From assembly GCA_022239325.1 (NCBI GenBank), contig JAKOGP010000005.1, forward strand, positions 124,001 to 188,000: DNA of 64,000 nucleotides, read 5' to 3'. Both the position numbers and the translations under genes were made by a program. The notes under the pieces were generated by a model. That model searched no databases and had not been told where the DNA came from. It worked only from the letters and a program-made list of their open reading frames with translations. Below, piece by piece: positions 38,933 through 57,200 of this stretch. Source of the stretch: Flavobacteriaceae bacterium LSUCC0859 (GTDB lineage Bacteria > Bacteroidota > Bacteroidia > Flavobacteriales > Flavobacteriaceae). Each line of letters opens with the position of its first letter. The stretch's first letter is position 1.

Positions 38933-38961
38933 AAAAAAAAGCCCCTCAAAAGGAGGGGCTT
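38933..38961 (-). terminator. Rho-independent terminator after the left cassette
   Basis: On the minus strand a 9-bp stem, AAGCCCCTC with GAGGGGCTT (38939-38947 and 38953-38961), with a short loop is followed by eight T. It lies 24 bases after the stop of the left cassette. The T-run abuts the ATG of the O-antigen ligase gene, an unusual arrangement. Confidence 0.88.
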
Positions 38962-38984: not shown

Positions 38985-41432
38985 TTACGAAGCTAACTTA
39001 GAGCTAAAGTTTACACTTTTTCTAGCAATAGAATCAGCATTTGTTTGACCAGTTCCATCTTTAGCATCTACCCATTTCTCGTCATCTCCAACTAGATTAC
39101 CGGCACCTGTATTAATACCACTAGCAGTAAGAATTGTAGCAGTACCGTTTGTAAAAGTAACTGTTTTTGCTCCTGCTACACCAGCTGCAGTAGATTTGAA
39201 AGTAACGTAAGCAGAACCTACATCTCCAGTATTGTCACCTAACACAATAGAAGCTGAATTAAAACCTAGGGATGTTGTAGAAGCTACTGAACCACTTAAG
39301 GCATAAACATCTAAATCAAAAGTAAAGACTGATTTTTGAGAACCTTTTGCTAGTGAAGTAAAGTCTAATTTAGATAAACCAGTTCCTGTACCAGTAGCAA
39401 CAGAATAATATTTAGAAGCAACACCAGTTCCAGCATCTAAAGCAGTTTTGAATGCAGTAGCAATTTCTGCAATAGAAGAAGCAGAACCTGAAGTAACAGA
39501 AACCGCAGCTCCATCTCCTGCATCTAAAACATAAACACCTGATACATTGGTAAGTCCTTTAAACTCGATAGAAGCTGTATTAACACCTTTACCGTAACCA
39601 TCAATAGCTACACCAACACTTGAAAGTTGAGCCGCTGTACCTGCATCTGCAGCCCAGTTTGCAACATCATAGTATAAACTTAAACCTGTACTTGGTATGA
39701 TTGATACAATATCGTCACCAACTTGAATTCCATTATTAGAATCTGTACCATCAAGTCCTGTAATTAACATTTCTCTTACCTGACTTACACCACCAACAGC
39801 GTTTGATGCTTCATAATCTACATTAGCAATTACACCAGCAGCAGTATCAGCACCAGAAACAGAATCAGTATCGTAAATTAAGTCTGTTGCAGCAACTGTT
39901 AAGTCTTCTACACCAGCAGCAGTAATTGTTTTTCCAATATTATCTGCTTTTACAACTACAGAACCTGCAGTTCCAATCTGACCAGCTGCATCAGCAATAA
40001 AGTCAGACAAAGGTTCGAAGTCTGCAGAAGTAATTACGTGAGCAACAACTGGAGATGTTCCAGGTAGTTGAATAGATTCGATAGTTAAGTCATTAGATTG
40101 AATATCTACTACAGCAGCGGTAGCAGCACCAACGTCATTTAAAGCAGCAAAACTTATTGTATCTAATTCACTGTTGTTCTTTACAATCAATTTGTGAAGA
40201 CCATCAACATTATCAGCAGTAAGGGAAGTTAAATCAGAATTTCCACTAACTTCTAATGAACCTTTAGCAGCTGATGTATATGGAATATCCAATGTAGACA
40301 GATCAGTTCCAGCAACCTTAACATTTAAAGCTGTGCCATCAAAAGTTAATGAAGTTAAATCAGAACCTGAAGATATAGTTACATTAGAAAAAGTACCACC
40401 TAAAATCAAAGTCTCTAATCTAGAAGAACTAGAAGTAACATTTAAATGCTGTGCAGTTGTTACAGAAGTTTTTGTTGAAGCTGCAGCAACAATATGAACA
40501 GAAGTTGCTCTGTCAAATACTGTATCTATAGCAATTGTAGCTCCTGCTGCTTTACCTGGATTTACAGAAGGCAAAACAACAGTGTCTGCTTTCGCAAAAG
40601 AAGATGAAGCAGATAAAGATTCCCATTTAGGTAAGTCTACTGAAGTAAGTGCATCTGCCACAATATCACCTTTAGCAAAAACAGGGGCAATAAGAGTAGA
40701 TGCATTAACTATTGTTAAAGACTCAAATGTAGTAGCAGCAGTACCGTCTACTTTAGTTAGGTTCGTGAAAGCAGAAAGATTTACTGAAGCATTGTCTGCA
40801 GTAGTAATAGAAATAGCAGAATCATAAGCAGTTAATGCAGATAAATCTACACTTGTTGCTTTTGCAAAACTTAGAGAACCTAATCCTGAAGTTGCATGAG
40901 TGAGTGCCGGTAAAGATACAGATGTAGTAAAGTCATCCCCAGATAAACTCAAAGCGCCTGTAGATTTTAATGCTGGCAATGAAATATCACCAGATTGGTT
41001 TATGGTAACGTTTTTAGCTCCGTTCAACTGAGTGAATACTCCTTGTGTAGTTGAACTTGCAGTAGCTGTATAAGTAACAGTTCCAGTAACAGAAACCATT
41101 TTAGCCATTAATGAAGCAACATCAGCGTCATTCATTGTAGAAGTATGAGTGATGTGAACTCCTCCGTTAATGATTGAAACCTTATCACCTAAAGCAAGAG
41201 CAAAGTCTAATTCTGACTGACTTGAAACTGTAAGAATAGATCCTGTTGGAGCATATATGTTATTTTGTGCTAGCAACTCGTCTAAATCTACTTGTTGAGC
41301 AGCCAAAGCAGTAGCTAAAGCAGCTACTTCGTCTGCAGTTGCAGCATTTGCCAATGCAGCTTGTAACTCGGCTACAGAAGCAGCTAAAGTTTCAAGTGAC
41401 GACTCTAGACCAGGGTCAGACCCAAAACACAA
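38985..41432 (-). CDS. Silent C-terminal cassette L of the switchable lipoprotein
   Basis: An 815-codon open frame without promoter, ATG start or signal peptide; the first in-frame start-like codon is a TTG at 41432. After the recombination core (encoding GLES at residues 8-11) come an Ala-rich coiled coil (AASVAELQAALANAATADEV), a conserved region ending in DKVSIINGGVHITHTS, then an LRR/solenoid-like set of short repeats (LTSLTADNVDGLHKLIVKNN) and a ~300-residue C-terminal domain. The first ~115 residues match the expressed protein at 42973-45150 and cassette R; the rest diverges. Joined to the expressed 5' end by inversion it would give an ~884-residue lipoprotein in frame. It could alternatively be a broken copy, but the intact frame over 2.4 kb argues against decay. 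Confidence 0.8.
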   Translation of the reverse strand: MCFGSDPGLESSLETLAASVAELQAALANAATADEVAALATALAAQQVDLDELLAQNNIYAPTGSILTVSSQSELDFALALGDKVSIINGGVHITHTSTMNDADVASLMAKMVSVTGTVTYTATASSTTQGVFTQLNGAKNVTINQSGDISLPALKSTGALSLSGDDFTTSVSLPALTHATSGLGSLSFAKATSVDLSALTAYDSAISITTADNASVNLSAFTNLTKVDGTAATTFESLTIVNASTLIAPVFAKGDIVADALTSVDLPKWESLSASSSFAKADTVVLPSVNPGKAAGATIAIDTVFDRATSVHIVAAASTKTSVTTAQHLNVTSSSSRLETLILGGTFSNVTISSGSDLTSLTFDGTALNVKVAGTDLSTLDIPYTSAAKGSLEVSGNSDLTSLTADNVDGLHKLIVKNNSELDTISFAALNDVGAATAAVVDIQSNDLTIESIQLPGTSPVVAHVITSADFEPLSDFIADAAGQIGTAGSVVVKADNIGKTITAAGVEDLTVAATDLIYDTDSVSGADTAAGVIANVDYEASNAVGGVSQVREMLITGLDGTDSNNGIQVGDDIVSIIPSTGLSLYYDVANWAADAGTAAQLSSVGVAIDGYGKGVNTASIEFKGLTNVSGVYVLDAGDGAAVSVTSGSASSIAEIATAFKTALDAGTGVASKYYSVATGTGTGLSKLDFTSLAKGSQKSVFTFDLDVYALSGSVASTTSLGFNSASIVLGDNTGDVGSAYVTFKSTAAGVAGAKTVTFTNGTATILTASGINTGAGNLVGDDEKWVDAKDGTGQTNADSIARKSVNFSSKLAS
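41398..41420 (-). other. Recombination site L (minus orientation)
   Basis: On the minus strand: TCTGACCC, core TGGTCTA (41406-41412), GAGTCGTC. The two arms match at only 4 of 8 positions as an inverted repeat. The core has the same reading phase (xxT GGT CTA) as in sites M and R. The left arm instead pairs with the right arm of site M, evidence of a past exchange between the two sites. Confidence 0.75.
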
Positions 41433-41446
41433 ACAATAAACTTCAC

Positions 41447-41482
41447 AAAAAAAGCCTGTAATGCTATGTATTACAGGCTTTT
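41447..41482 (-). terminator. Terminator between recombinase 1 and silent cassette L
   Basis: An 11-bp perfect stem AAGCCTGTAAT/ATTACAGGCTT (41452-41462, 41470-41480) with a 7-base loop and, on the minus strand, seven T. It stops recombinase transcripts before they reach cassette L, keeping that cassette silent. The A/T flanks also allow bidirectional action. It travels with the invertible segment. Confidence 0.88.
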
Positions 41483-41501
41483 AAAGGCTAATTAAAAATT
41501 T

Positions 41502-42515
41502 TTATTGTGCTACTGCCCTGGCATAACCTTCGCTAAAACTTTGTTTTTCTTGTATTTTGAGCACCCCAGACATGAAAATATCGGCGTAGGCGTCCCTGTT
41601 GTTGTTTCTTCCAATATAACTTAAAAAAGTACTCTCCCTTGAGTGGCCAGTCATGTTCATGAGAATAGGGGTTTCAATCTTACCAAAGAAGTTGGTGGCA
41701 AAGGACCTACGTAAGTCATGGGAAGAAATTACCTGGTATTTGGGGAACAAGCCAATTTCTTTTCTCTTGCTTTCTGGATTGTATTGGTAGCCCTTAACTT
41801 CTTCATTTATCCCTGCCATTTCTAGGACCTCCTTCATATATCTATTAAAACATCTATCGCTTATACGCCTGGGAAAATCCAATTTAATAATTTCCACAGC
41901 TAAGGGGTTTATAACTCCTACAGTTACCGCAGTTCGTGTCTTTTTTTGTAAAATGTCTACATATACCCCACCATTAGCTGCGGTTCTAATATCTAACTTG
42001 GTCAATGCCAGTAAATCCGAGACCCTTTGGCCCAACCAAAAGCCTATAACAATCCATTTTCTGGTGTTTTCAAGACGTTCAGAAGGCAGTCTAATTTGCT
42101 GAATTTTTTCGAGATCTGAAAAGGTGAGTATGTTAATGAGCTTATCTTGCCTAGATTGTGCAAAACCGGACACATAATTGGTGTAGGGGTGTACCGCAAT
42201 ATCATTTTTCTTGGCGTCTACACAAATAGTTTTCAGGGTTCCCATAAGCCTACCTGCATGATTTTCAGAATAATTTTTATCCTGCAAAAGCCACTGTTTA
42301 AAACGATCTACGGTTTTTTTATTGAGGTCTGAAAAATAGAGGGTACCTGAAAAATCAATTTCAAATTCTTTGAAAACAATTCTAAAATTGGTGTAGTTGG
42401 CTATAGCACGTGAAGACAAGCCCACTCTACCGCCACTCATACTTCTAAATTTAGCGTTGGCGATAAAATGGTCTAAGTAAGAAACTATAGACGTATTCAC
42501 AAGGTTTGTACTCAT
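41502..42515 (-). CDS. Tyrosine recombinase 1 of the lipoprotein switch
   Basis: About 337 residues from ATG at 42515; a GTG at 42527 is possible but the ATG aligns with its paralogs. N-terminal core-binding domain (NYTNFRIVFKEFEIDFSGT, FKQWLLQDKNYSENHAG), then the catalytic domain with GFWLGQRVSDLLAL (first Arg), SSHDLRRSFATNFFGKIE (His-x-x-Arg) and MTGHSRESTFLSYIG (His and Tyr). All catalytic residues are present, so it should be active. It lies inside the predicted invertible segment, transcribed toward site L and away from the lipoprotein promoter. It is the best candidate for the invertase. Confidence 0.93.
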   Translation of the reverse strand: MSTNLVNTSIVSYLDHFIANAKFRSMSGGRVGLSSRAIANYTNFRIVFKEFEIDFSGTLYFSDLNKKTVDRFKQWLLQDKNYSENHAGRLMGTLKTICVDAKKNDIAVHPYTNYVSGFAQSRQDKLINILTFSDLEKIQQIRLPSERLENTRKWIVIGFWLGQRVSDLLALTKLDIRTAANGGVYVDILQKKTRTAVTVGVINPLAVEIIKLDFPRRISDRCFNRYMKEVLEMAGINEEVKGYQYNPESKRKEIGLFPKYQVISSHDLRRSFATNFFGKIETPILMNMTGHSRESTFLSYIGRNNNRDAYADIFMSGVLKIQEKQSFSEGYARAVAQ

Positions 42516-42527
42516 AAGCTGGGGCAC

Positions 42528-42972
42528 AGCTTAGGCAAAATAAGTAGCAAGATGTATTGGGGATTGCAAATGTAAGAAAAAAACTACAAAACTTTACAAA
42601 AAAGTGCTCATAATGCTAATTCACAACAATTTGACATCAATTATTGCATAATATTTTTAGTATGATAAAAAAAAATGTAGCTTTGAGTATTAATAGGGTA
42701 TACAGTCCCTTTTTGGAAATTTATACAGCGAAACTACTGTTTCTTTAGCCGATGGATATTAACCACTCGTCTATAGATATACGGTATTTCGTCGAAAAAG
42801 TGAAAACGACCAATGCTTAGTTTCACACTTTTGCACGGTATACATGTTCCCAAATTGTACCTGTATTCGAATTTAACTAATGACTATGAACCAAAAACGC
42901 ATTACTAATCAAATTTTAACACAAGAACTTTCTTTAAATTCAACACTTAATTACTTATTTAACATTTCAAAC
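42528..42972. promoter_or_regulatory. Divergent control region between recombinase 1 and the lipoprotein
   Basis: No gene, but dense structure. A TAGCTTTG element (42678-42685, plus strand) is a candidate -7 box for the lipoprotein, with only a weak -33 match, and implies a ~285-base leader. Dyads: GAAAC-tact-GTTTC (near 42730) and AAAGTG/CACTTT arms (42797-42802, 42826-42831). ACGGTAT is repeated at 42781 and 42835. A short in-frame extension upstream of the lipoprotein (from 42880) has no signal peptide and is taken as leader. Regulator or recombinase-helper binding is inferred. Confidence 0.5.
42567..42600 (-). promoter_or_regulatory. Promoter of recombinase 1
   Basis: On the minus strand the perfect Bacteroidota -7 element TACATTTG (42567-42574) is preceded, after 22 bases, by TTTG (42597-42600), within the spacing reported for Flavobacteriia. 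It lies about 50 bases before the ATG at 42515. A CTTTACAAA motif (42592-42600) shared with the recombinase at 9600 overlaps the -33 end. Confidence 0.6.
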
Positions 42973-45150
42973 ATGAAAAAACTATTTTCTTACTTATTAA
43001 TTTCGTCCATGGTGGTTTTGTCATCATGTACAAACTACGACGATCAATTTGATGATCTGAACTCACAGATAAATAGCTTGAAAGGCCAGATTGAAGGTTT
43101 TTCTTCTTTATCTTCAGGATTAACTGCTTTACAAGGAACTGTAGCTTCTTTACAGTCTGCTGTAGCTAACATTCCTGTAACTCCTGCAACTGACATCTCT
43201 GGTCTAGAGTCAGACCTAGATGCATTAAGCTCTGGATTAGAGGCAGTTACAACTAAGCTTGCAGAATTAGAAGCCGCTTTGGCTAACGCTTCTACAGCTG
43301 CTGAGGTTGCAGCTTTGCAAACCGCTTTAACAGCTGCACAGGCAGATATTACTACCATCTTAGAAAATAATAATGTTTATACAGGTGATTTAAGCATCAC
43401 TAATACTGCTGAATTAGCTTTTGCCACTGCCCTAGGTGACAAAGTAGCTATCATTAACGGTAATGTTGTGGTAACTGTAGACAGTGATGACTTAGACGCT
43501 GAAGCAGTTTCTGCTGTAACTTCAAAAATAGCTTCTGTAGTTGGAAGTGTAACAGTTACTACAGACGCTTCTCTAGATTTTTCTGCCCTAACTGCAGTAA
43601 GTTCCTCTTATTCAGTTACTGGTCATGATGTAGATGACGCTGCTTTAGCTTCTGCTAACGGAGTTACTTTAAACTACAATGGTGCATATACACAACCTGC
43701 TTTAGTAACAGCTGGTGCCGTAACCATCACAAACAAAACATCTACGGTAACAGGTACAATTGCTGTAGACTTTTCAGGATTAACCTCAGGATCTGTTAAC
43801 AGCGGTACTTTATCTTTAGATTCTGCTGCTTCTGTTAAAATTGGATCTGGAGCTGCTATTGTTTCTTTAACTGCGCCAAAAGCCTTAGAGGTTGAATTGC
43901 ACAATGCTGGAACTCTAGCTTCTTTAACTATAGACACAGCTTCTGCAACATCTGTTGTAGTAAAAGCTACAAAAGTAACTGGAGCCACTACGGTAACAGC
44001 TACCTCTGCAGTATCTTTTCCAAGTGCAACTGATGTAGCTGCATTAACTGTTTCTGCTGGTTCTTTTTCTGCACCTTTATTAACAGATGCTGCTGCAACT
44101 ACAGTTAACGCAGACGAAATTACTTTAACAGCACTTGAAACTTTAAGCGCTGCAGCTTCTTTTGACACAGAAGCCCTAAGTGTTCCTGCTTTAAAAACAG
44201 CAGCTGCTTTAACAATAAGCACTTTAGACGCTGTTGCTCTTCCTGCTTTAGAAACTGCTGGTGTTATTACTGCAGACAATGCAGTAACTTTTAATGCTGG
44301 GGTTCTCGTAACTTCTGCTGCTATCAATACCGCTTCTGCTACTACTGTAGTATTAGGTTCTGCTACTGCTTCACATATTGCAGACTTAGCTACTGTAAAA
44401 GAATTGACATTAAACAACCAAGCTACTGCTTTTGCTGTTGGAACTGCAGCGGAACTTACTAGCTTAACTATAAATGGAAAATCTGCATCTACAACTAGTG
44501 TAACTGTTGGAAACGCTGCTAAATTAGCTACTATTTCATTAACAGGTAAGTTTGCTTCTGCTAGCGTAGAAGGTGCTTTAGCTAAATTAGAGTCTTTAAG
44601 CACAGCAGGTACTATTGAATCTTTAACTGTATCTGGAACAACTAAATTGGCTGCCGTAGATTTCGCTCACACTTCTGCAGATGTGTCTACCCTTAAAGTG
44701 GTAAACAATGCTAAATTAGGATCACTTACAACAAGTACAGACTATCTTGCAGAATTAACAGTTACAGGTAACAATGTATTAACTGCTGCAGATTTCTCTT
44801 CATATGCCAATGTAATAAACGATACTGCTGCAACTGCTTCTGTAACCATAGCAATAGGGACAAACTCACTAACTGCTACATTTACTCCTGCAACAGCTGC
44901 AAGTGGTGCTACTGCTTTTGCAGAAGCTACTATTGTTTCTGCCTCTTTAGGAAGTTTATCTGCTTACATCCAAGATGTATATGATGTAGACCCAGCTATG
45001 ATCTCATTATCATTAGATCCTGCTGCTACTACTAAAGGAACTTCTGTAGCTGCGTTTAGTACTCAAAACGCAACAGCAGTAACAGGTTCTGATTTACCAG
45101 CCGGTGCAATTGCAAGTGAAGAAGCCAATGCGCTTATCACTGCCAACTAA
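42973..45150 (+). CDS. Expressed switchable surface lipoprotein (constant 5' end + cassette M)
   Basis: 725 residues. MKKLFSYLLISSMVVLSSC is a complete lipoprotein signal; acidic residues right after the Cys (TNYDDQFDD) resemble the surface-export signal of Bacteroidota lipoproteins. A heptad coiled coil (LNSQINSLKGQIEGFSSL) follows to residue 76, where the GLES core begins. Beyond it comes cassette M: a second coiled coil (LAELEAALANASTAAEV), the conserved NNNVYTGDLS...ALGDKVAIINGN block, and an Ala/Thr/Val-rich solenoid of short repeats to the end. It lacks the extra C-terminal domain of cassettes L and R and any T9SS sorting motif. Start chosen at 42973 for the signal peptide; the frame opens earlier at 42880. 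The ligand is unknown; probably an adhesin or antigen. Confidence 0.85.
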   Translation: MKKLFSYLLISSMVVLSSCTNYDDQFDDLNSQINSLKGQIEGFSSLSSGLTALQGTVASLQSAVANIPVTPATDISGLESDLDALSSGLEAVTTKLAELEAALANASTAAEVAALQTALTAAQADITTILENNNVYTGDLSITNTAELAFATALGDKVAIINGNVVVTVDSDDLDAEAVSAVTSKIASVVGSVTVTTDASLDFSALTAVSSSYSVTGHDVDDAALASANGVTLNYNGAYTQPALVTAGAVTITNKTSTVTGTIAVDFSGLTSGSVNSGTLSLDSAASVKIGSGAAIVSLTAPKALEVELHNAGTLASLTIDTASATSVVVKATKVTGATTVTATSAVSFPSATDVAALTVSAGSFSAPLLTDAAATTVNADEITLTALETLSAAASFDTEALSVPALKTAAALTISTLDAVALPALETAGVITADNAVTFNAGVLVTSAAINTASATTVVLGSATASHIADLATVKELTLNNQATAFAVGTAAELTSLTINGKSASTTSVTVGNAAKLATISLTGKFASASVEGALAKLESLSTAGTIESLTVSGTTKLAAVDFAHTSADVSTLKVVNNAKLGSLTTSTDYLAELTVTGNNVLTAADFSSYANVINDTAATASVTIAIGTNSLTATFTPATAASGATAFAEATIVSASLGSLSAYIQDVYDVDPAMISLSLDPAATTKGTSVAAFSTQNATAVTGSDLPAGAIASEEANALITAN
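43192..43214 (+). other. Recombination site M (plus orientation)
   Basis: GACATCTC, core TGGTCTA (43200-43206), GAGTCAGA. As an inverted repeat the arms match at only 3 of 8 positions. The left arm pairs 6/8 with the right arm of site L and the right arm pairs 7/8 (9/10 when extended to GGTCTGACYC) with the left arm of site L. It lies in the coding frame at codons 74-81, encoding D-I-S-G-L-E-S-D. Confidence 0.78.
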
Positions 45151-45194
45151 GAGTAATTAAGTTTGAATGAAACACTCTGTGTAGTGTATATAAA

Positions 45195-45224
45195 AGACCC
45201 TCCAATTGGAGGGTCTTTTTTTTT
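45195..45224 (+). terminator. Terminator after cassette M
   Basis: AGACCCTCC-AATT-GGAGGGTCT (45195-45216), a perfect 9-bp stem followed by nine T. It ends the lipoprotein transcript 45 bases after the stop and separates it from recombinase 2. Confidence 0.93.
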
Positions 45225-45337
45225 GTGATGTTGGTCTATATTAGGGTGTTATTAATCTAAAATTATTACTTAATAGATTAATTTTTAGTAACTTAAATTA
45301 AGTTAAAGGATTCCCAAATCTAATAAACTTACTTACT

Positions 45338-46312
45338 ATGCAAACAATTAAAAAACAAGTTAGCATAGCATCTTATATGGCTGTTTTTATAGAAAATGCT
45401 CAATACCAAGTGGTAAAGGGCGGGCAGTTAGGACTCAGTAAAAGAGCGCTTTCCAACTATAAAAACTTTGCCAAAATAATGGCTGCTTATGACACTTATC
45501 AAAAGAAAAAATGGTGCTTTAATGAGATAAGTGCGCAGAGCGTACATGCGTTTAAGCAATATCTGTTAGAAAAGAAAAAATACAGTCTAAACCACGCTGG
45601 ACGGATCATGGGCTTTTTAAAAACCGTTTGTAAAACGGCAGCCAATTACCAGATAGACACTGGAAACGCTACCCATCTCATTGCAGGATTTTCAAAACCT
45701 CAGCAAGATAAAATAATTCACACCATCAGTTTTGAGGAATACCAGCGGATTATAGCCATAGATTACAGAAAGAATGACCGCCTAAACAACGCCAGAAAAT
45801 GGCTCATTATAGGTTTTTGGATAGGGCAACGTGTTTCTGATTTACTAAAGCTTAGCCCAGACCAATGTAGACCTGCCCCTAATGGAGGTATCTATATAGA
45901 TGTAGTACAACAAAAAACAAAAAAACGAGTAACTCTTGGAGTCATAGACCCCCTAGCCCTCAAAATTATAAACCAACAATTTCCAAGAACCATTGGAGCA
46001 CGATGCTTTAACAGATATATGAAAGAAATCTGCAAAGACGCTGGACTCACTCAAATGGTCCAAGGTTACAAGATGAACCCAGAGACCAAAAGAAAAGAAG
46101 AGGGTGTATTTCCCAAATACGAGCTGCTCTCTTCACATGACCTCAGACGTTCCTTTGCCACTAACTTCTTTGGGAAAATAGAAACTCCAGTACTCATGCA
46201 AATGACAGGGCACTCCAGAGAAAGTACTTTTTTGTCTTATATAGGAGTTGGAGAAAATAAAGACCTCTATGCCAACAGTTTTATGGAAGGTTTAAAAGAA
46301 ATAAAAATTTAA
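45338..46312 (+). CDS. Tyrosine recombinase 2 of the lipoprotein switch
   Basis: 324 residues, same family as recombinase 1: core-binding part NYKNFAKIMAAYDTYQKKK and FKQYLLEKKKYSLNHAG, catalytic GFWIGQRVSDLLKL, SSHDLRRSFATNFFGKIE and MTGHSRESTFLSYIG, with Arg, His-x-x-Arg, His and Tyr intact. It lies between cassette M and site R, transcribed toward cassette R, repeating the recombinase-site-cassette order seen at site L. Only AT-rich weak hairpins, not a strong terminator, separate it from site R. Upstream, ATTCCCAAATCTAATAAA (from 45310) resembles a stretch before recombinase 3 (from 49166) and may be a shared promoter or binding element. Confidence 0.93.
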   Translation: MQTIKKQVSIASYMAVFIENAQYQVVKGGQLGLSKRALSNYKNFAKIMAAYDTYQKKKWCFNEISAQSVHAFKQYLLEKKKYSLNHAGRIMGFLKTVCKTAANYQIDTGNATHLIAGFSKPQQDKIIHTISFEEYQRIIAIDYRKNDRLNNARKWLIIGFWIGQRVSDLLKLSPDQCRPAPNGGIYIDVVQQKTKKRVTLGVIDPLALKIINQQFPRTIGARCFNRYMKEICKDAGLTQMVQGYKMNPETKRKEEGVFPKYELLSSHDLRRSFATNFFGKIETPVLMQMTGHSRESTFLSYIGVGENKDLYANSFMEGLKEIKI

Positions 46313-46337
46313 ATTTTATTTTAAAATTGTAAATGAA

Positions 46338-46385
46338 TTCTTACAATCATAACTATTTAATTATCAATATGTAAGAAAATACTTA
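46338..46385. repeat. Inverted repeats next to site R
   Basis: TTCTTACA (46338-46345) and TGTAAGAA (46370-46377) form a perfect 8-bp inverted repeat; GTAAG (46371-46375) also pairs with CTTAC (46381-46385), ending just before site R. TGTAAGAAAA recurs in the promoter of recombinase 1. They may be accessory binding sites that order the synaptic complex. Confidence 0.45.
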
Positions 46386-46408
46386 CCGGATTCTGGTCTA
46401 GAATCCGG
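46386..46408 (+). other. Recombination site R (plus orientation, fully symmetric)
   Basis: CCGGATTC, core TGGTCTA (46394-46400), GAATCCGG: 8/8 matching inverted arms around the 7-bp core, a textbook tyrosine-recombinase site. It is a direct repeat of site M and inverted relative to site L. Its perfect symmetry suggests that its two halves have not been exchanged with the others in this genome. Confidence 0.8.
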
Positions 46409-46418
46409 ACAGGCTGCA

Positions 46419-49019
46419 TTGACCGCTGCACTAGAAGCTTTAGCTACTAGATTAACTACATTAGAGACTGATTTAGCTGGTGCTGCAACCGCTGCTGAAG
46501 TTACTGCTTTACAAACAGCTTTAGCTGCTGCACAAGCAGACTTAACTGAGTTATTAGCTTCTAATAATGTATATTCTAATGATCTTACTATTAATTCTCA
46601 GGCTACTTTAGATGTAGCTAAGAGTTTAGGAGGGAAGTTAGCTATCATTAACGGAGGTGTAACCATTACTCAATCCTCTTCTATGGATGCAGAAGATTTG
46701 CAAGCTGTGGTAGATGTAATGGTGACAGTTACAGGAAATGTAACTTACACTATGGCTGTTAACGGTTCTACTCAGGCAGTATTTAATAATTTAACATCAG
46801 TTGGTGGTCTTAATCTAGATGTATCTGGAGCTATTAACTTCCCTGAATTACAGAATGCTGGCGCTGTTGTATTAGATGACACCCACAAAAACTACGTAAC
46901 TTCTGTAGAGTTTCCAAAGCTTTCTAAAGTTACAAGCTTTAAAACTGGGTCAGATGCTAACACTATTAAATTCTCAAAAGCTACCGCTATCACTTTATCA
47001 GAATTAGCTAATTATGAAAACGCAAGTTTGACTTTGGAAGGTAAATTAGATTTTACTTTAGACTTAGCAAAATTGACTTCAAAAACAGCTGCTGGTGTTA
47101 AAAACCCAATTAATTTAACAATCAAAGGAGCAAAAGAAGTGACTTTACCAGAGTTTACAAGTGGTAAAGTTATTGCAGATTCTTCTGAAAAAGTAGTATT
47201 GGCTAAATATGAGGGTAACATAGGAGATAGCTTTGCTAAAACTGAATACCTTCATTTAGAAGTATACGAAGAAGACTATACTTCAAGCTCAACTTCTTTG
47301 GATACTTTAATATTTGGTGGTGTTGCTGAAAGTTCAGATACAGATAGTGGTGATCACCCAACATTAGATTTAGATGGTGCGTCTGGCTTAACTAACTTAA
47401 CTGTAAAAGGAAAGCTCTATAAACTTTATCTTAAAGGAAATACTTCATTAACAGATGTAGACGTAACAGGAGCTATAAATAGTGTAACTGTTGAAGGTGC
47501 TACTTCTCTTGAGGCTTTAGTTTTAGGTCATACAGGTGCAGCAATTGCAGCTGATAAAGATGAGGCAGATTTAACAATCAAAGGTAATACTGAACTTGCC
47601 TCTTTAACTGTAGACGCATTAGTTAATGCTGCAGATCTTACTATTACTGGCAACACTTCTTTAGAGACTATTAGTTTTGCTAAATTAGCTGGAATTGGTG
47701 TAGACGCAGTACCAGTTGTAGATGTTAGCAATAACAACTTAACCGCATCTGTGGTTGAAAAAGATACCAACGGTTCTACTGATGCTGTTACAGCTGCAGG
47801 AGGTACTGGGTCCATTACTACTACTTCTGGAATGGATGATTTAAAAGCATATTTAGGTGCTGCTGCAACAAAAGCTGCTGCAACTGCTGGTGCTTCTGTT
47901 TATGCTTCATTTGACACTGTAGAAACTTATATTGACACTGCAGATGCACAAACTGGACCATTCAACTTTACGGTAGGTGCTAAAGGTCAAGGGAATAATG
48001 TATATACTGAGATTGTATATATAAGTCCTGCAGAAGGGGCTGATAAGTTTCCAAACAGAACTTCTTATATAATTAAAGATTTAATGGATGGTAGTGATGA
48101 CAAAATTACTATTGCTGCAAATGGTGGGACTGTAAGTTATACAAAAGATGCCACTACAGAAACAGCAAGTGAATTTGTTTCTAGAGTGGTAGATACTGAT
48201 GCACTTTCAGCAAATAGTGTTGGTCTTACAAAACTTACTGGAATTAACAAACATCTTGATTTAACATTTACAACAGATGATGCCACTGCTGCACAGGGTG
48301 CATACACTGCAACTTTACTAATTGGATCTACTGGTTATTCCTCTGCGGTAGTAACCCCAACTTCTTATACAAACGGAAAAGTAGAAATCTTAGTTGCAGC
48401 ATCTTCAGGGAATGCAGCATCTGACGATGCAACAGCTTTTGCTACAGCCTTTAATGACAAAACAAAAGTTAAAGTATACACCTATACTGCTAGTGGGACA
48501 TACACAACAACAACTGTTGATTATACATCAATGTATAAAGCAACTGCTGCAGGTGGAATTGTGACGCTTCAACCATTAAAAACTGTTTACACTTCTGCAA
48601 CTGCAACAGAAACAGTTATTGATTTAACCTCAGGTGCAAGAAATTTACCAGTCTACACACTCTTCACAGATTTAGTTCCTGCAACAAGTACACCAAATAC
48701 AACAAATGTACCAACAATTGCTACTTCAATTGCTAAATCAGATTTTGGAATTACAGTGACAGATGAATTATATGGGACTTCTAATACATTTATTGCAAGT
48801 GGAAGTGAGGCTGTTTCAATGGCAGATGGAGCTACAACCACTATTGCAACAGCTGTAATAGCAAAAATAAATGAGGATTCTACTTATGATAGTACAGACG
48901 GAACTAGAGAATACCATAAAACTGGAGTTCCTTATTCAAATACACTTACAAGAGTAGAAGAAGTTGATAAAGACAATGGTGTTTCTGCCAACAAGAAAAA
49001 CATCACTTCGTGGCTATAA
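46419..49019 (+). CDS. Silent C-terminal cassette R of the switchable lipoprotein
   Basis: An 866-codon frame whose first start-like codon is TTG at 46419; in frame it opens at 46353 and runs through site R (S-G-L-E-S), with no ATG, signal peptide or visible promoter. Order: Ala-rich coiled coil (LEALATRLTTLETDLAGA), the conserved block SNNVYSNDLT...LGGKLAIINGGVTIT, LRR/solenoid repeats (LTSLTVDALVNAADLTITGN-like) to about residue 460, then a ~400-residue Thr-rich C-terminal region in two or three domains. Fusion to the expressed 5' end would give ~950 residues in frame. It is the longest of the three alternatives. Confidence 0.8.
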   Translation: MTAALEALATRLTTLETDLAGAATAAEVTALQTALAAAQADLTELLASNNVYSNDLTINSQATLDVAKSLGGKLAIINGGVTITQSSSMDAEDLQAVVDVMVTVTGNVTYTMAVNGSTQAVFNNLTSVGGLNLDVSGAINFPELQNAGAVVLDDTHKNYVTSVEFPKLSKVTSFKTGSDANTIKFSKATAITLSELANYENASLTLEGKLDFTLDLAKLTSKTAAGVKNPINLTIKGAKEVTLPEFTSGKVIADSSEKVVLAKYEGNIGDSFAKTEYLHLEVYEEDYTSSSTSLDTLIFGGVAESSDTDSGDHPTLDLDGASGLTNLTVKGKLYKLYLKGNTSLTDVDVTGAINSVTVEGATSLEALVLGHTGAAIAADKDEADLTIKGNTELASLTVDALVNAADLTITGNTSLETISFAKLAGIGVDAVPVVDVSNNNLTASVVEKDTNGSTDAVTAAGGTGSITTTSGMDDLKAYLGAAATKAAATAGASVYASFDTVETYIDTADAQTGPFNFTVGAKGQGNNVYTEIVYISPAEGADKFPNRTSYIIKDLMDGSDDKITIAANGGTVSYTKDATTETASEFVSRVVDTDALSANSVGLTKLTGINKHLDLTFTTDDATAAQGAYTATLLIGSTGYSSAVVTPTSYTNGKVEILVAASSGNAASDDATAFATAFNDKTKVKVYTYTASGTYTTTTVDYTSMYKATAAGGIVTLQPLKTVYTSATATETVIDLTSGARNLPVYTLFTDLVPATSTPNTTNVPTIATSIAKSDFGITVTDELYGTSNTFIASGSEAVSMADGATTTIATAVIAKINEDSTYDSTDGTREYHKTGVPYSNTLTRVEEVDKDNGVSANKKNITSWL

Positions 49020-49021
49020 TC

Positions 49022-49037
49022 TCTAGAATATTCTAGA
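49022..49037. repeat. Perfect 16-bp palindrome after cassette R
   Basis: TCTAGAATATTCTAGA starts two bases after the stop codon of cassette R. Each half contains TCTAGAAT, which is also the right part of site R (core plus arm). It could be a vestigial or secondary recombinase-binding site, or coincidence. Confidence 0.4.
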
Positions 49038-49062
49038 AATAACCCATAGTCATCTACAAAAT

Positions 49063-49090
49063 GGTGCCACCCGAAAGGGTGGCATCTTTT
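49063..49090 (+). terminator. Terminator after cassette R
   Basis: TGCCACCC-GAAA-GGGTGGCA (49065-49084): an 8-bp stem with a stable GNRA loop followed by a T-rich run. A silent cassette keeping its own strong terminator fits the idea that it is a transcribed gene in another configuration. Confidence 0.88.
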
Positions 49091-49192
49091 GTTTTAAAAC
49101 ATTTATAATTAATTGTTTAAAACAATGCATTTAAATTAAAGATTTAAGGTAAAATGCATTAAAAATTCCCAAAATCTTATAAATAGTCAAAA

Positions 49193-49228
49193 TGTATTGA
49201 GAGTAATTCACTAGATACCCTCAATACA
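49193..49228. repeat. Inverted repeat upstream of recombinase 3
   Basis: TGTATTGAG (49193-49201) and CTCAATACA (49220-49228) form a perfect 9-bp inverted repeat around an 18-base spacer, 80-110 bases before the recombinase start. Likely an operator or accessory site; not seen before the other recombinases. Confidence 0.5.
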
Positions 49229-49305
49229 ATAAGTGTAAAATAAAACCTACTTGTTTTTTAAAAGCCATACAATTGTGGCGTGGTAAGCAACTAAAAACAA
49301 GTAAA

Positions 49306-50280
49306 ATGAAAAATGACATTAAAATACTGGCATTCTTAGACGTGTTTATTAGAACCATTACCGTTAGAGAAGCTAACAACGGCCAAATAGGGCTAAAACA
49401 AAAATCGGTTAATAATTACCTAGTATTTAAAAAAATGTGGGTGTTATTTGAAGCCTACGAGCTCAAAAGCTATCGATTTAGAGATTTAGATAAAACAGTA
49501 GTAGAAGATTTTAAGTTTTGGCTTCTAGAAGAAAAAAACTTTAGTCCCAATACCGCTGGGCGGCACTTTGGTACTCTGAAAACCCTGTGTTCCGAGGCTA
49601 AAAAAAGTGACTATAAAGTACATAAGTACTGCAAATATATAAAGGGCTTTTCCAGACCCAAAGATCAGGAAACAATCAATACCCTGAGTTTAGAGGAGAT
49701 TAGGAAAATCTCAGAGTTGCAATTAGACTCTGAACGCTTAGACAATGCCAGAAGGTGGATTATCCTTGGTGTATGGCTAGGGCAACGGGTTTCCGATCTG
49801 CTCAATATTACCCAAGCAAACATTAGAAAATCCAATGTGGTGGGCTACTATGTAGACCTTACCCAACAAAAAACGGGTCATAAAATTACCATAGGGGTGG
49901 CCAATAAAAATGCCATTCAGATTATAGAAGAAGGCCTGCCTAGAAAGATCAATAGCAAGCTATTTAATGAGTTGCTTAAGGAGGTACTAGCCTTAGCAGG
50001 TGTTACCCAAAAGGTAAAAGGCTATAAATTCAATAAAAAGACCAAACGCAAAGAATTTGGAGAATATAAAAAATGTGAGATCATGGCTTCCCATGATTTA
50101 AGGAGAACCTTTGCTACTAATTTTTACGGAAAAATAGAGACTCCTATTATTATGAGAATGACTGGGCATTCCAGAGAACACAACTTCCTGAGGTATATTG
50201 GAAAAAATGAAGATTTAGATTATGTGGCAGACACCTTTATCTCCAAAGTTAACGCTCTAGAAATGCATACCGCTTCTTAG
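49306..50280 (+). CDS. Tyrosine recombinase 3 of the lipoprotein switch
   Basis: 324 residues from ATG at 49306, equal in length to recombinase 2; the frame is open from a TTG at 49273 but that start lacks support. Catalytic residues are present in GVWLGQRVSDLLNI, ASHDLRRTFATNFYGKIE and MTGHSREHNFLRYIG. It differs from recombinases 1 and 2 around the nucleophile (REHNFLRYIG versus RESTFLSYIG), hinting at a different specificity. It closes the array at the right edge and overlaps the PorP/SprF gene tail-to-tail by four bases. Confidence 0.92.
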   Translation: MKNDIKILAFLDVFIRTITVREANNGQIGLKQKSVNNYLVFKKMWVLFEAYELKSYRFRDLDKTVVEDFKFWLLEEKNFSPNTAGRHFGTLKTLCSEAKKSDYKVHKYCKYIKGFSRPKDQETINTLSLEEIRKISELQLDSERLDNARRWIILGVWLGQRVSDLLNITQANIRKSNVVGYYVDLTQQKTGHKITIGVANKNAIQIIEEGLPRKINSKLFNELLKEVLALAGVTQKVKGYKFNKKTKRKEFGEYKKCEIMASHDLRRTFATNFYGKIETPIIMRMTGHSREHNFLRYIGKNEDLDYVADTFISKVNALEMHTAS

Positions 50281-51287
50281 TAAAACCTAGAAAAATCGCG
50301 GCGGTTGCGGTCTCTGAATGGAGAGAGGTCAAAGTTTACAAAAATCTCGAAGGCGTTGGGAGCTGCGGCTTGGCTGGCGCCCATGGGAAGAGAGTAATTA
50401 AAACCAATGTCTAAGGCCTCTATTTTCATGCCGGCAGAGACGCCAAGCTGGAACAGATTAAAACCGTTTAAACTAGACACATGCTCATTAATTCCAATAG
50501 AAATATTGGCTAATATGAGTTCTTGGTATAGATCTACCCGGGTGTTGGGTCCCTGGCGGCTTACATTGTTAAACAAATAGAGATAGGAATAAGAGGGTAA
50601 CCTCCCCTGCTGGTAACGGTTAAGGTTAAACTCATAGGCAAATTGAGCCCCAATGAGCATGTCTAAACTTATGGCTACCTCCGAGAGCTCCGTAGAGGTT
50701 TTAGGCTTGTTAATATGCCTGATAGAGAGTCCATAGGCCATATTGTAGTCATTATGAGCCATAAAAGAGGCTCCAAAGTCTATGAAGCCCATATTGTCTG
50801 TGGCACTTATAGGATCTATAGTTTGGGTGTTTACCTGGCCGCTTAGAATATCTATTTGGTCTGAAAAGACCAAATTGGTGTAGTCATACATAAAGCCTCC
50901 ATAGCCAGCACTTACTCCAGGGTAAAAGGTCCAATTATTTTCTAACTGAAGCTTGTAAATATAGCTGAGCTTGAGCATAGAATTGTTAAAACCAGAATTG
51001 TCTAACCTAGAATTCATATACTCTATACCCAATTGAAAGTCATAGTTATCAAAGAAGGTAGTGGCGTAGGCGTACTGATGCTGGGACACATTATTGTCCT
51101 GAGCGCTAGCAAACTCACTCACTACCCCAATTTTAGAAGGATCTTTAAAGCTAAAAAAACTAGCATTTACCGAATGGGGTAGGTTGCTCATATTGTGAAT
51201 AAAGCGGTCTTGAGCTTGTACCACAAAGGTTTGTAGCCCAAAAAGGCATAACCCTACAATCAGATATGTGGTTTTTAATGTGCTCAT
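50277..51287 (-). CDS. PorP/SprF family type IX secretion-associated outer membrane protein
   Basis: 336 residues with a signal peptide (TTYLIVGLCLFGLQTF, then VVQAQ) and the PorP/SprF hallmark pattern after it: DRFIHNMSNLPHSVNASF, alternating beta-strands with GVSAGYGGFMYDYTN and MGFIDFGASFMAHNDYNMAY. Such proteins are membrane partners for secreting or anchoring the giant T9SS protein encoded directly upstream, as SprF serves SprB in gliding. The stop of the giant gene and this ATG share one base (TAATG), a strong sign of translational coupling. Confidence 0.9.
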   Translation of the reverse strand: MSTLKTTYLIVGLCLFGLQTFVVQAQDRFIHNMSNLPHSVNASFFSFKDPSKIGVVSEFASAQDNNVSQHQYAYATTFFDNYDFQLGIEYMNSRLDNSGFNNSMLKLSYIYKLQLENNWTFYPGVSAGYGGFMYDYTNLVFSDQIDILSGQVNTQTIDPISATDNMGFIDFGASFMAHNDYNMAYGLSIRHINKPKTSTELSEVAISLDMLIGAQFAYEFNLNRYQQGRLPSYSYLYLFNNVSRQGPNTRVDLYQELILANISIGINEHVSSLNGFNLFQLGVSAGMKIEALDIGFNYSLPMGASQAAAPNAFEIFVNFDLSPFRDRNRRDFSRFY

Positions 51288-54200
51288 TAGCGCAGTAAGA
51301 TAGCTTCTCCGTTGGTAGTATATTCTTTGTCGTCATGGGTAATGGCTGTAAAGCTAAATCTAAAGTTTTTAGCCGCATAAGGAATACCCGTAATTTGGTT
51401 GCCGTCCCATCCCCAACCGGTGGCCACAGGAAGCTCTTCTACCGTTGTGGTAAATACCAGATTGCCCCACATGTCATAGATGTCTAATTTAAAGGACTTT
51501 ATTCCGGTGTACTTAGGTTCAAAGACGTCGTTTATACCGTCTGCATTGGGTGTGAAGGCAGAAGGGAAAATTACCAAATACCCCCTACCCACAATGAGTT
51601 CTTGAGTAGTTTCTTTGTAACAGCCCAGAGCGTTGTAAAAACGCATGGCCACGGTAAAGGTTCCAGGGGTTCTGTATTTGTGTACAATGTCTGTGGTGGC
51701 CGCGTTTTCTGCAGTTACTTCTAAGATGTCTGAACCGTCTCCAAAATCCCAAGTCATTTTAGTATACAGGTCTAATGAGCTATTGGTGAAGGTAACCTCT
51801 TCGTTGGCCGCAATAATACCAGACTGGTCGTAATTGGTAGAACTATAGCTAAATTCTGGCTCCCCTACCCCTGTTGTAATAGCCACAGAAACCCCACAAC
51901 CCTGCTCGTTTATGACGTTTAGAATGCCGTCTTCTACCGGCTGGTCTATGGTTACCTCGTAGGTGTCGTCTCCAATAAAGTTGCTGCTCACTAGGCTGCC
52001 CTGGTAATAGAAACTAAAGTCATCGGAGTCTCTGTCAAAAACCTTAATATTTAGAGTCCCCGGCTCTCCTATACAGAGGGATCTGCTAAGGAATGGGCCG
52101 TCTAAAATTTGTATGGTCTCTGCTGGAGAGAGGGTGTAAAAGCCTGTAAAATTGGTGGCCTGTGAATTGGCACAGTTCACAAGAGAGGAGCCAATCTTTA
52201 AGCGGTATCGGCCAGCGGCCAAATTATTGATTGCTAATAAATTAGTCCCCACAAGTTCGTAGCTAGGGTTAGGGTCTTGAGCGTTCCCTGGAATTTCACG
52301 CTCCCATATAATGTTGTAAGGTGCCGCCCCACCCTCTATGGCAATGCTAAAGGCGCCGTCTGAAGGATCTATACCACAGCTAAGCTCTTGGGTATTTACG
52401 GTAACACTAATGGGTTTTATATTGGCCTCTATGAGGAATTCTATAGGGTCTGAAAGACAGCCTTCTGCGTCTTCTATCACTAGGCTGTACTTGCCAGGGT
52501 TTAATGGTACCGCCTCTGTGCTAATGAATGACACAAAACCAAGGGCAGAGTCTGTGGTGGCAGAGGCTGTGGTAGCACTAGCCGTGCCTGTGGTAGGTGT
52601 TGCAGTGCCTGTAGTAGTGCTTCCAGTACCTGTGAGTGGTACGCCACTGGCCAGACCTGTCCATCTGTATATATAATAGGGCTCCTGAGCAGCGTTCACA
52701 AATGGGGTACCCCCACTAACTAAAGCGGTGTTAGGGAAGGCCTGATTGCTAGGATCACAAACATCTAATACCAAGTCTGTTTCTCCTAGGTAGGAGATGG
52801 GTTCAAAAGCCCCAAGGGTAAAGTTTTCAAAGATTTCACAGCCATTGGTGGTTCCGGTTTGGGTTCCCGTAAGTGGAATTTGCTCTATAATACGCAGCAG
52901 ATAAGAACCTCCTGTAAGTTCTGGAATACGGTACTGCTGTGTGGTGTTGTTGTATTTGAGCTGTCCATTAGCAATAGAAACCTCATTGCCGTTAAGGAAG
53001 AACTTCAGGGCATTGGTATGCTTAAGCCTAAAGGCAAAGGAGCCAGTTTCTATCTCACAAGTAGGAGGTGTTACTTTGGTGTTAAAAATATCTAAGGGTG
53101 CCGCACCAATAGTAAAGTTTTTCACTACGGTATTACATGCGCCGGCTTCTTCAGAACTGTCGGTAATGGTAGCCCGGTATTCTCCAGGGGTAAGGCCAGT
53201 GAGCAATAGATCTCCAGGTCTGTTTAGGTTAGCCCACTCGTAGCAGTCTACCGTACAGGTAGAAGTGGTGGTAGAGACGGTTCCGCCTGCGGCAGACTTA
53301 AGTTCCCATTTCTCCCAAACCACATTGGGACTAACTCCATTGGAAACAGAAAGGCTAATGCTGGCGTCTGCAGCGTTTACCGAACAGCTAGATTGATCTA
53401 CCGTACCTATCACCTCAAATGGAGCCGCGGGAGGATCTATGCTTATGTTAATTGTTTTAGTACATCTATTGGCGTCTGTGACCAAAAGGGTATAGGAACC
53501 TCCCTCTGTTACGTTCAAGCTTGGCTGGGTGGTAACTCTATTAATGCCTGGGCCGGTCCACTGGTAGCTGTAATTGCCGCTGCCACCGCTTACGGTTACG
53601 GCAATAGATCCAAAGCCGCCACAGGGAATTTCTGTAATCGTAGGCTCAGAAATTTCTATCTCCTCTGGAATGGTCACCACAATATTTGGTATGACCACCA
53701 CTGCACAATTGTTGGCGTCTGTAAAGGAAATAGTGTGGGTTCCCTCCTGAATGCCTGTGATACTTTTGGTAATTGCAGTGACAGAGCTGGTACCAAAGCT
53801 TATCTGAGCGCCATTATCTATAGAATATTTGTATGGTGGGGTACCACCTGTGACTCTAAAGCTGGCAGTGCCTCCGTTACTACTAAAACAAGCCGGGCTC
53901 TCGGTTTCTCCAATCGGAGTTGCGTTGAATGCTTCTGGCTCCGAAATAGTGTAAGTTTCTTCAATTTTACAGGCGCCATCTGAAGAGTTAAGGTCCGAAA
54001 TGGTGAGCCTATACACCCCAGCACCCAAACCGCTAATAGAAGTGGTATTGTTATTGTTGGTTACTGAGGCCGTTACTGCAGTTCCATTGTTGTTGGTCCA
54101 TACAATCTGAAGATCTGCATTGGGGTCTGCGCTAAACTGTACCTCTATGGCGGCGTCTGTGTCTCCATTACAAGAGAGTACGGCATTGGTAAGCTGAGAT

Positions 54201-57200
54201 CTCACTATAGAAAGTTCAGAGACAGAACCCACTTCTATGATGGCGGTGTCTGAGCAGCCTAGGGCGTCTGTTACGGTAAGCTCATACTGTCCTGGTCCAA
54301 GGTTGTTCAGGTCTCTTGTAAAGTAGGTGACTCCTGCAGGACCCTTCCACTCAAAGGTATAGCGGCCACTGCCCCCTACTACAAAATCATCTGCCACGGT
54401 AATGGTTCCGTCATTTACCCCAAAGCAGGTAGCGTCTGTACTGCTAAGCTTGCTCTCGTCTATGTCTAACTCAATAGGCATAACAATTTGCTGAGATATA
54501 GGCGAACAGGTTCTAAGGCCATTTTCAGAAAGGGTAACTGTATAGGTTGCCCCTTTTATTAGGTTGGGGAAGGTATGGGCACTTCCGTCTATTGCCGCAA
54601 TAGTTACAGGTGGGGTATTGGTGCTGGTGAGGGTATAGATATAATTCTCTAGCCCTCCGGTTCCTGTAGCAGTTAAAAGTCCGTCACAGGTAGCACTCAA
54701 AGTGAGGCTCAATGCAGCAGGTTCAGTAATAGTAAACCAATCTGAAGACTGTATACAAACTGGAACCACCACGCCCTCTATAGTGTTGGTGTATGTGCTA
54801 ATGGAAAGCTTATAATCTCCAGGAGTGAGACCAGTAGCCTGCATGGTATTTTGTCTAAAACCTCCGTCTCCTCTTTTCTGCCACTCAAAAGTAGGGCTAG
54901 GGTGGCTACTCACAAAATCTGTGAGCTCTACGCGTATAGCCCCATCTGCCACACCGTTACAACTCACGTTTTCTACGCGGGTAAGTATGGCGGCATTGTC
55001 AAAGGTAGTTGGCGTTACGGTGGTAATGGTCACTACGTTAGAAGGGATGGAATTACAAGCAATGCCATTGATAGTATTGGTGGTAATTCTTCTAAAAGCT
55101 GTAGTTTCATTAAGCGGCGTACTAAAAGTTAAATTTTCTGCGGTAGCCCCGCTAACAGTGGTCCAAACACTAGCCCCTGATGGTAAGGCCTCCCAGAAGT
55201 AGGTCATGGCCCCTCTAGACTGGTTATTTGCTGCAGCAGTTTGGCTTATGGGTATAGATGGGTTAGAGCCGGCACATACAATGAGCTCTTCGGTGTTTAC
55301 AGAGCCTGGAGAGACCTTATTTACAATCATTTCTATGGGTGCAGTATACGCATAGGCCGTGGTACAAGGCGTACCACCATTATCTAAACGTACACCCCTT
55401 CTGTAGAAAGTGGTATTGCTTTGGGTGCCTATGCTAAGGCTGGCCGTGGTTACACTGCTGGTTCCGCTCATTACCTGGCTCCAGGTAAGATTATCTGAGG
55501 ACTGTTCCCATAGGTATTCTTGATTGCTAAAGCTAGAGTCTCCTGTCACGGTGAGGGTAAAGCCGCTGTGGTCTACACAAAGTACCTCGTTTGTACTAGC
55601 ACTTATGGTTCCCGGTACCAAGACTTTGTCTAGCACTTCAAAGCGCTGGCTCACACTAGCACATGTAGTATTGTTGGTAGCTGTAAATTCATAGCGGCCT
55701 GCGTCTAAGTTTTCTATTCTTAGGGTGTTAGAGAGGGTCACGGTATTGTCTACTTGGTCTCCAGTTGCCCCCTCCAGTTTTACCCAGCTAAAACTATTGG
55801 TGTTCAAGGCAGGCCTCACATATTCTACCGACATTCTGGTGTCTGTGGTGCGGCTGCTAATATTGGTGCTTATGGTAAAAGGAACTCCTGTGTCACTAGC
55901 TGTGAGGGTAATCACGCTTCCAACATGTACCACCTGAATACTTGGGCCTGGGGTAAGAGCCGCTGTGAGACTGGCTGTGAGACTGGCTAAGGTAGTGTTA
56001 GACGCTGTTGCCGTGTACGAATAGGTATTGCTGTTAATTGTTACCTCATAGCGACCGGAAGGGGTATAGGTTCCAGACCTTGTATAGGTGCCTGAAAGCG
56101 TGATATTTACCCTTTGGGCTTGTGCGGTTTGGCTGCCACCTAGCACTGCAGCTGCAGGCACTTCAATAGCTCCGTCTGCACCACCTGGGCAGGTAGGATC
56201 TGTAACCAAATCTCTTGGAGTTGGAATATTGAGTGTGGGAGCGTCTAATACATTAATGAGTAATACGTTGGAGTATTCTGTACAAAAAATTCCTGGTGAA
56301 ATTTCCTGTCTAATCCCTCTTCTGACATATATAGAATTGGGCATGCTGTTAGTAATATTAAGTACCTGATTGTTCACAGAACCAGAATAATTTCCAGAAA
56401 GGCTGAGTAAGCCCCAGTTGCCTCCAGTAGTATTTTTGGTTTCCCAGAAGCTCTCAAAACTACTCTCGTAACCAGGTACCTTGGCTTCTGTAGCCGCAGA
56501 GGCGGCGCCAATCACAATAGGACTATCGAGAGAGACACAGGTATTGAGCACATTTTCTACCACTGGATTTTCTTTAAATACAATGGTACCTGGCTCTATA
56601 TTCACTACTTTAATAGTTATTGGGTCTGAGTAAATAGTACAGCTCGGAGAATTGGTTCCTGTTGCTACATAAGACAATTTAAGCCTGTAGTAGGTCTCTT
56701 GGAACAAGGCGGGTAACCTATAGGTGTTGCTGTCTTCAAAACCTCCATTACCGTCTGCTATGGCAGACCAGGTAGTAGAGTCTGTAGAACTCTCCCAAAC
56801 CTGCTCTGTATTGTCTGAAAGTAAGGCAATGTCCGTGGCATTGGTGAGGCTTAGGGTACCTCTGCTAAGGTCTGAAGCACAAACGGTATTGACGCTGCTC
56901 ACTATGGCGGGTTTGGGCATTTCTTCTTTTACCACCACGGTAAAACTATTGGAGAAATTGTCTTCTTCGTCAGAGTCGTCACAAGTTAAAGTAACCGTAC
57001 CAACTGTTATATTAGACAGCACTTTTCTTCTAAACTGTGTGGTTTTAGTGAGCGGCTGTGGTTGGTAGTTTACTTCTGTAGCACCAGGAATAAGAGACCA
57101 GTTCCCCCCTACTTCTTTTTTGTACCACTCAAAAGACACGGCACCACTTACAGTGTAGGCCGTAGATCCATCTAAGAAGCTAGCAGGCTGCTCGTTATAA

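Follow-up and report, generated by a model that had tools for sequence, protein, structure and literature searches.

Introduction

In Mycoplasma pulmonis, inversion at the vsa locus by the tyrosine recombinase HvsR sets the promoter, the ribosome site and the 5' part of a lipoprotein gene before silent 3' ends (PMC2268961). In the R64 shufflon, the tyrosine recombinase Rci uses a 7-bp core with arms of about 12 bp and gives pilV alternative C-termini while its N-terminus stays constant (PMC11852207). The SusC/SusD shufflons of Bacteroides fragilis depend on Tsr0667, a recombinase that shuffles outer-membrane protein genes (PMC4747536; PMC11852207). The S-layer switch at BT1927 of B. thetaiotaomicron makes a surface lipoprotein phase-variable by DNA inversion (PMC12548429). 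No description of such a switch in Flavobacteriaceae was found in the open-access literature (subscription papers were not covered).

In this study, we analysed a lipoprotein locus in a 64,000-nt stretch of flavobacterial DNA (the window). It is very probably an intragenic site-specific inversion switch, and switching in this species remains unshown. A sequence-only reading had called the locus apparently undescribed. This held for the lineage within the searchable literature but not for the principle, which is known from vsa. Among described systems, vsa comes nearest in mechanism, followed by the R64 shufflon and the B. fragilis shufflons.

Results

One expressed 5' end and three cassettes

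The expressed 5' end, the three cassettes (frame map; for R also the promoter scan) and their terminators (terminator scan) were located as follows. G011, of the same genus, and G001 are related genomes.

42678-42685, plus strand: conserved -7 promoter box TANNTTTG of the lipoprotein gene (TAGCTTTG here, TAAATTTG in G011 and G001)
42686-42972, plus strand: long conserved 5' leader
42973-43199, plus strand: constant 5' end with the start, the lipoprotein signal (LSSC) and the first coiled coil
38985-41412, minus strand: cassette L, a silent C-terminal cassette without its own start or signal
43200-45150, plus strand: cassette M, the C-terminal part now expressed
46394-49019, plus strand: cassette R, a silent C-terminal cassette without its own start or signal
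38939-38961, minus strand: terminator of cassette L
45192-45219, plus strand: terminator of cassette M
49063-49086, plus strand: terminator of cassette R
41446-41486, minus strand: hairpin and T-run 3' of recombinase 1, also insulating silent cassette L (by eye)

An exact search of the window for the 12-mer TGGTCTAGARTC gave three sites (minus strand 41401-41412, plus strand 43200-43211 and 46394-46405), all in the same codon phase, in agreement with the sequence-only reading. When one mismatch was tolerated, there were 4 matches in the window against 0.46 expected. Fusion of 42973-43199 to L, M or R in silico produced open frames of 884, 725 and 950 aa, respectively, each with a single, terminal stop. 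These are the three lengths that had been predicted for the lipoprotein. The cassettes are paralogues whose homology starts at the core and continues downstream; none was seen on the 5' side of M. The likeness between L and R to the left of the core comes, in our reading of the alignment, from the 3' ends of two recombinase genes. The terminators 3' of L, M and R, one for each cassette as had been proposed, were rated strong by the scan. The hairpin at 41446-41486 was absent from the scan output and was recognised by eye only.

Neither cassette L nor cassette R, each a long intact frame, has an ATG or a lipoprotein signal. Since possible TTG codons lie close to their ends, they might be independent genes whose starts were not recognised. 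A scan for Bacteroidota-type promoters 5' of L and of R nevertheless gave no match, in-frame stops precede the core in both, and neither has a signal peptide. A full 5' end is moreover present on the G011 homologue of L and on the G001 orthologue. Independent genes are thus hardly tenable. A hidden promoter and start driving L and R independently, which the sequence-only reading had named as a refutation, found no support in the promoter scan, and its claim that only the copy at 42973 has a promoter region, an ATG and a lipoprotein signal was confirmed by the frame map and the promoter scan.

Promoter, leader and predicted product

The TANNTTTG box and the long leader are common to the window and two other species. 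The leader was 83-87% identical in these species, and long fully identical blocks, in a region reaching into the first codons to about 43040, covered synonymous codon positions around the start. The leader had no match in Rfam, its fold z-score was only -1.3, and no clear copy was found elsewhere in 298 genomes. It is possibly a regulatory RNA or a protein-binding leader. At the protein level, G001 and G011 both retain the frame that precedes the lipoprotein ATG (window 42880-42972, MTMNQKRITNQIL...). Translation may therefore begin earlier, or the frame may encode a leader peptide.

Inspection of the translation showed a signal peptide with a lipobox cysteine, MKKLFSYLLISSMVVLSSC, at the M start 42973. 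This signal is kept in G011 and G001, and the product meets the criterion for an outer-membrane lipoprotein. In the proposed product, a lipoprotein of the outer-membrane type, the anchor and the coiled coil are constant, and a leucine-rich-repeat-like solenoid varies. The structure model of the R product contained two helices and a confident beta-solenoid over residues 60-450 (pLDDT mostly 80-94). A Recep_L_domain match was under the cut-off (E=5.8e-4), and leucine-rich-repeat matches were weak (best E=0.034). For M, a single-sequence structure model reached a pLDDT of only 49 and was left unused as too poor. Surface exposure and purpose are inferred, by analogy, from the lipoprotein signal and from similar systems.

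Recombination sites and half-sites

The sites around the three cores are given below.

41393-41425, minus strand: recombination site L, with 13-bp arms and the spacer TGGTCTA at 41406-41412 (minus strand)
43187-43219, plus strand: recombination site M, with the spacer at 43200-43206
46381-46413, plus strand: recombination site R, CCGGATTCTGGTCTAGAATCCGG, a near-perfect palindrome

The recombination site had been placed at the 12-mer. The 12-mer does occur three times, but the true site is larger and has a 13-7-13 bp structure. The 7-bp spacer TGGTCTA is identical at all three sites and has 13-bp inverted arms on each side; the criterion for a tyrosine recombinase inversion site, a short identical spacer with inverted arms, is thus met. 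A search of the genome itself with a longer pattern gave no extra sites.

Half-sites were compared after each was written outward from the spacer. L-left matched M-right at 10/13 positions, and M-left matched L-right at 10/13. Site R was palindromic in itself (R-left and R-right, 10/13). Sites L and M matched within themselves at 5/13 each, and all remaining pairs at 4-5/13. When the 5 inner bases were excluded, which leaves the outer 8 bp, the best pairing of the three lefts with the three rights scored 18/24, a value reached in about 1e-5 of random draws. Because the L and M half-sites match crosswise, each present site consists of halves of two parental sites. Judged from the arms, this pattern is the scar of one L x M inversion inside the spacer.

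The cassettes are homologous downstream of the core, and gene conversion between these paralogues could be invoked for the chimeras in place of site-specific recombination. However, upstream of the core the silent copies have no sequence in common with the expressed 5' end, and the exchange point falls inside the spacer between paired arms. Arms and spacer also accompany recombinase genes in two further genera, as described below. Homologous recombination is therefore a very improbable source of the chimeras, and site-specific inversion remains the preferred reading.

Recombinases of the locus

Three recombinase genes were identified using Pfam and motif alignment.

41502-42515, minus strand: tyrosine recombinase 1, inside the invertible L-M segment
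45338-46312, plus strand: tyrosine recombinase 2
49306-50280, plus strand: tyrosine recombinase 3

The R/K/HxxR/H/Y catalytic motifs were intact in 3/3 recombinases in the alignment. All three had Pfam SAM-like and Phage_integrase matches, with recombinase 2 slightly under the curated cut-off for PF00589, and all met the criterion for membership of the tyrosine recombinase (phage integrase) family. Searching PDB sequences with the profile of the recombinases yielded no match. The order-wide recombinase search found the glycan-locus type only, and the three-recombinase locus was seen in a single genome. On viral contigs, relatives of the recombinases were distant; the junction pattern matched 9 times, in no case with the lipoprotein.

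A fourth recombinase, also of this family (window 9600-10568), adjoins a glycan-biosynthesis cluster. Glycan genes are likewise the neighbours of its relatives, whose identity is 67-79% in G003, G354 and G337 and about 50% in G604 and G450. This recombinase may govern a separate switch.

Proposed exchange of cassettes

In the proposed mechanism, the single segment with the promoter, the leader and the 5' end of the lipoprotein gene (about 42.68-43.20 kb) would be joined in frame to any of the three C-terminal cassettes, so that inversion would swap the variable, presumably exposed, leucine-rich-repeat-like part. Strand exchange would occur within the common spacer TGGTCTA between the 13-bp inverted arms. 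Catalysis by the tyrosine recombinases of the locus is inferred, and which enzyme acts on which site is undetermined. The possible routes follow from site orientation, and none was directly observed in this species. Sites L and M are inverted with respect to each other; exchange between them would invert 1.8 kb carrying recombinase 1 and the promoter and 5' end, and would move expression from M to L. The 5' end would then face site R, and one further inversion would give the R state. M and R are repeated in direct orientation; recombination between the two would remove cassette M along with recombinase 2. From the present state, R would thus be reached by two inversions or by an excision that loses M.

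The un-inverted state in relatives

The predicted junction of the 5' end with L was present in G011, where the 5' arm seen in the window runs into L at the core. The 5' side was identical at 53/60 nt, and the tail matched L at 60/70 compared with 28 for M and 29 for R. The joined cassette was 92% identical over 79 nt to cassette L of the window. With respect to porP, the promoter region and 5' end of G011 are oriented oppositely to those of the window. In G001, a complete lipoprotein gene oriented as in G011 lies between porP and a wzy-like gene; it has the same 5' end as the window and a tail 43% identical to L. Both relatives thus have a single, un-inverted lipoprotein gene beside porP. In the window, promoter and porP are separated by a block made up of recombinase 1, M, recombinase 2, R and recombinase 3.

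Orientation and junction in G011 and G001 indicate that the L state is ancestral. Relative to these genomes, the promoter segment of the window is flipped onto M. The G011 contig stops 72 bp beyond the core, the genome is 88% complete, and no recombinase passed E<=1e-60 in it; G011 therefore shows the un-inverted state and not switching.

The switch is bordered (window 50277-63961) by a gene of the PorP/SprF family and by a repetitive, adhesin-like gene of very large size (>4200 codons). The neighbour on the PorP/SprF side of the lipoprotein gene is kept in G001 and G011.

Loci in other genera

In a Candidatus Arcticimaribacter MAG (G787), locus L019 comprises an expressed lipoprotein gene, an inverted headless cassette and a recombinase, with the shared site CTC-AGGTTCA-GAGTGAT and the spacer AGGTTCA. 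Locus L036 (G031) has the same anatomy with the spacer GGATTAC; no further copies were found in the genus of G031. The predicted chimeras were in frame (716 aa in L019 and 740 aa in L036). The arms of the headless copies, GACTC/GAGT in L019 and ACTC/GAGT in L036, resemble GARTC of the window. Like arms with differing spacers would be expected of a system in which the enzyme binds the arms and a spacer need only match its partner. The L019 sites, checked by eye for a half-site swap, gave no clear pattern. At a third locus, L020, a cassette is followed by a recombinase and a contig end cuts the locus. The sequence-only reading had described the order as recombinase-site-cassette, but the repeated unit in L019, L036 and probably also the truncated L020 is site-cassette-recombinase.

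A second G787 contig, L093 (G787:C156, 1-5429), begins 33 bp upstream of the spacer. Its first 47 bp are identical to the expressed 5' end of L019; a different cassette of 694 aa follows, and then wzy-like and winged-helix genes, apparently orthologues of the left flank of the window. L093 and L019 lie on separate contigs with different neighbours despite the identical 47-bp 5' end. G787 yielded a single full 5' end. On these contigs, the simplest reading is that one population holds two junctions, which is suggestive and concerns a relative only. It is not excluded that G787 has two 5' ends that are paralogues, one of them truncated where the contig stops.

The locus might instead have undergone a single ancient inversion and now be locked, with L and R as dead 3' leftovers and no switching. 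This assembly displays one orientation only, and the L and M sites now have hybrid arms. Hybrid arms can lower recombination, as in lox half-site mutants. On the other hand, L and R show no decay, both frames being long, intact and followed by a terminator, and the catalytic motifs are intact in all three recombinases. L019 and L036 share the design, and G787 appears to have two junctions in one MAG. A locked locus is therefore improbable, and we retain the inversion switch as the preferred reading.

Discussion

The sites, the frames, the half-site swap, the alternative junction in relatives and the recurrence in other genera can all be read from the DNA, and we take them at that level. On the frames and the alternative junctions in G011 and G787, the locus meets the broad shufflon/vsa-type criterion of a constant 5' end with alternative, in-frame, silent 3' ends brought in by inversion. 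Exchange at the shared core, as the sequence-only reading had proposed, is supported for L and M by the half-sites, the G011 junction, the un-inverted genes of G011 and G001 and the loci in other genera. For R, the state is only inferred, and no R junction was seen anywhere. The 'antigenic' role is a guess; evasion of phages, grazers or immunity, or changed adhesion, is inferred.

Each site-cassette-recombinase unit could also be a small self-mobile module that excises as a circle, for which the direct repeats M and R would serve, and inserts at the site in the lipoprotein gene, with arm types specific to its own recombinase. This idea is tentative and rather unlikely; if true, lineages would collect and trade surface-protein tails.

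Cassette-switching of surface lipoproteins, from mycoplasma pathogens and plasmid shufflons, would be extended to Flavobacteriaceae that have small genomes and are apparently marine. Long-read ocean metagenomes that already exist allow a direct count of the predicted junctions, and such counts would test natural surface variation of these bacteria against phages or grazers. The combination of one spacer, three arm types and three recombinases, together with the loci having other spacers, is a natural set for recombinase/site co-evolution.

As in M. pulmonis vsa, an expressed lipoprotein 5' segment would be inverted onto silent 3' ends. The resemblance is in mechanism only, since proteins and organism are unrelated and the cargo here is a Gram-negative outer-membrane-type lipoprotein with leucine-rich-repeat-like cassettes. 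In contrast to vsa, three recombinase genes lie within the array, and the spacer varies between loci while the arms stay GACTC/GAGTC-like. The R64 shufflon shares the tyrosine recombinase, the 7-bp core and the constant N-terminus with alternative C-termini. However, the mobile parts of R64 are its C-terminal segments, and a single recombinase acts on all seven sites, whereas here the constant 5' end would move, each added cassette pairs with a recombinase gene, and the arms are palindromic within the parental sites. The SusC/SusD shufflons of B. fragilis, in the same phylum, also involve outer-membrane protein genes rearranged by a recombinase, but Tsr0667 is a master recombinase at many loci, and cargo and sites differ. 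BT1927 is an on/off promoter inversion outside the coding sequence without cassette exchange, unlike the present locus. Within the searchable literature, the cargo, the lineage, the site set and the multi-recombinase array appear to be new, and the principle is known.
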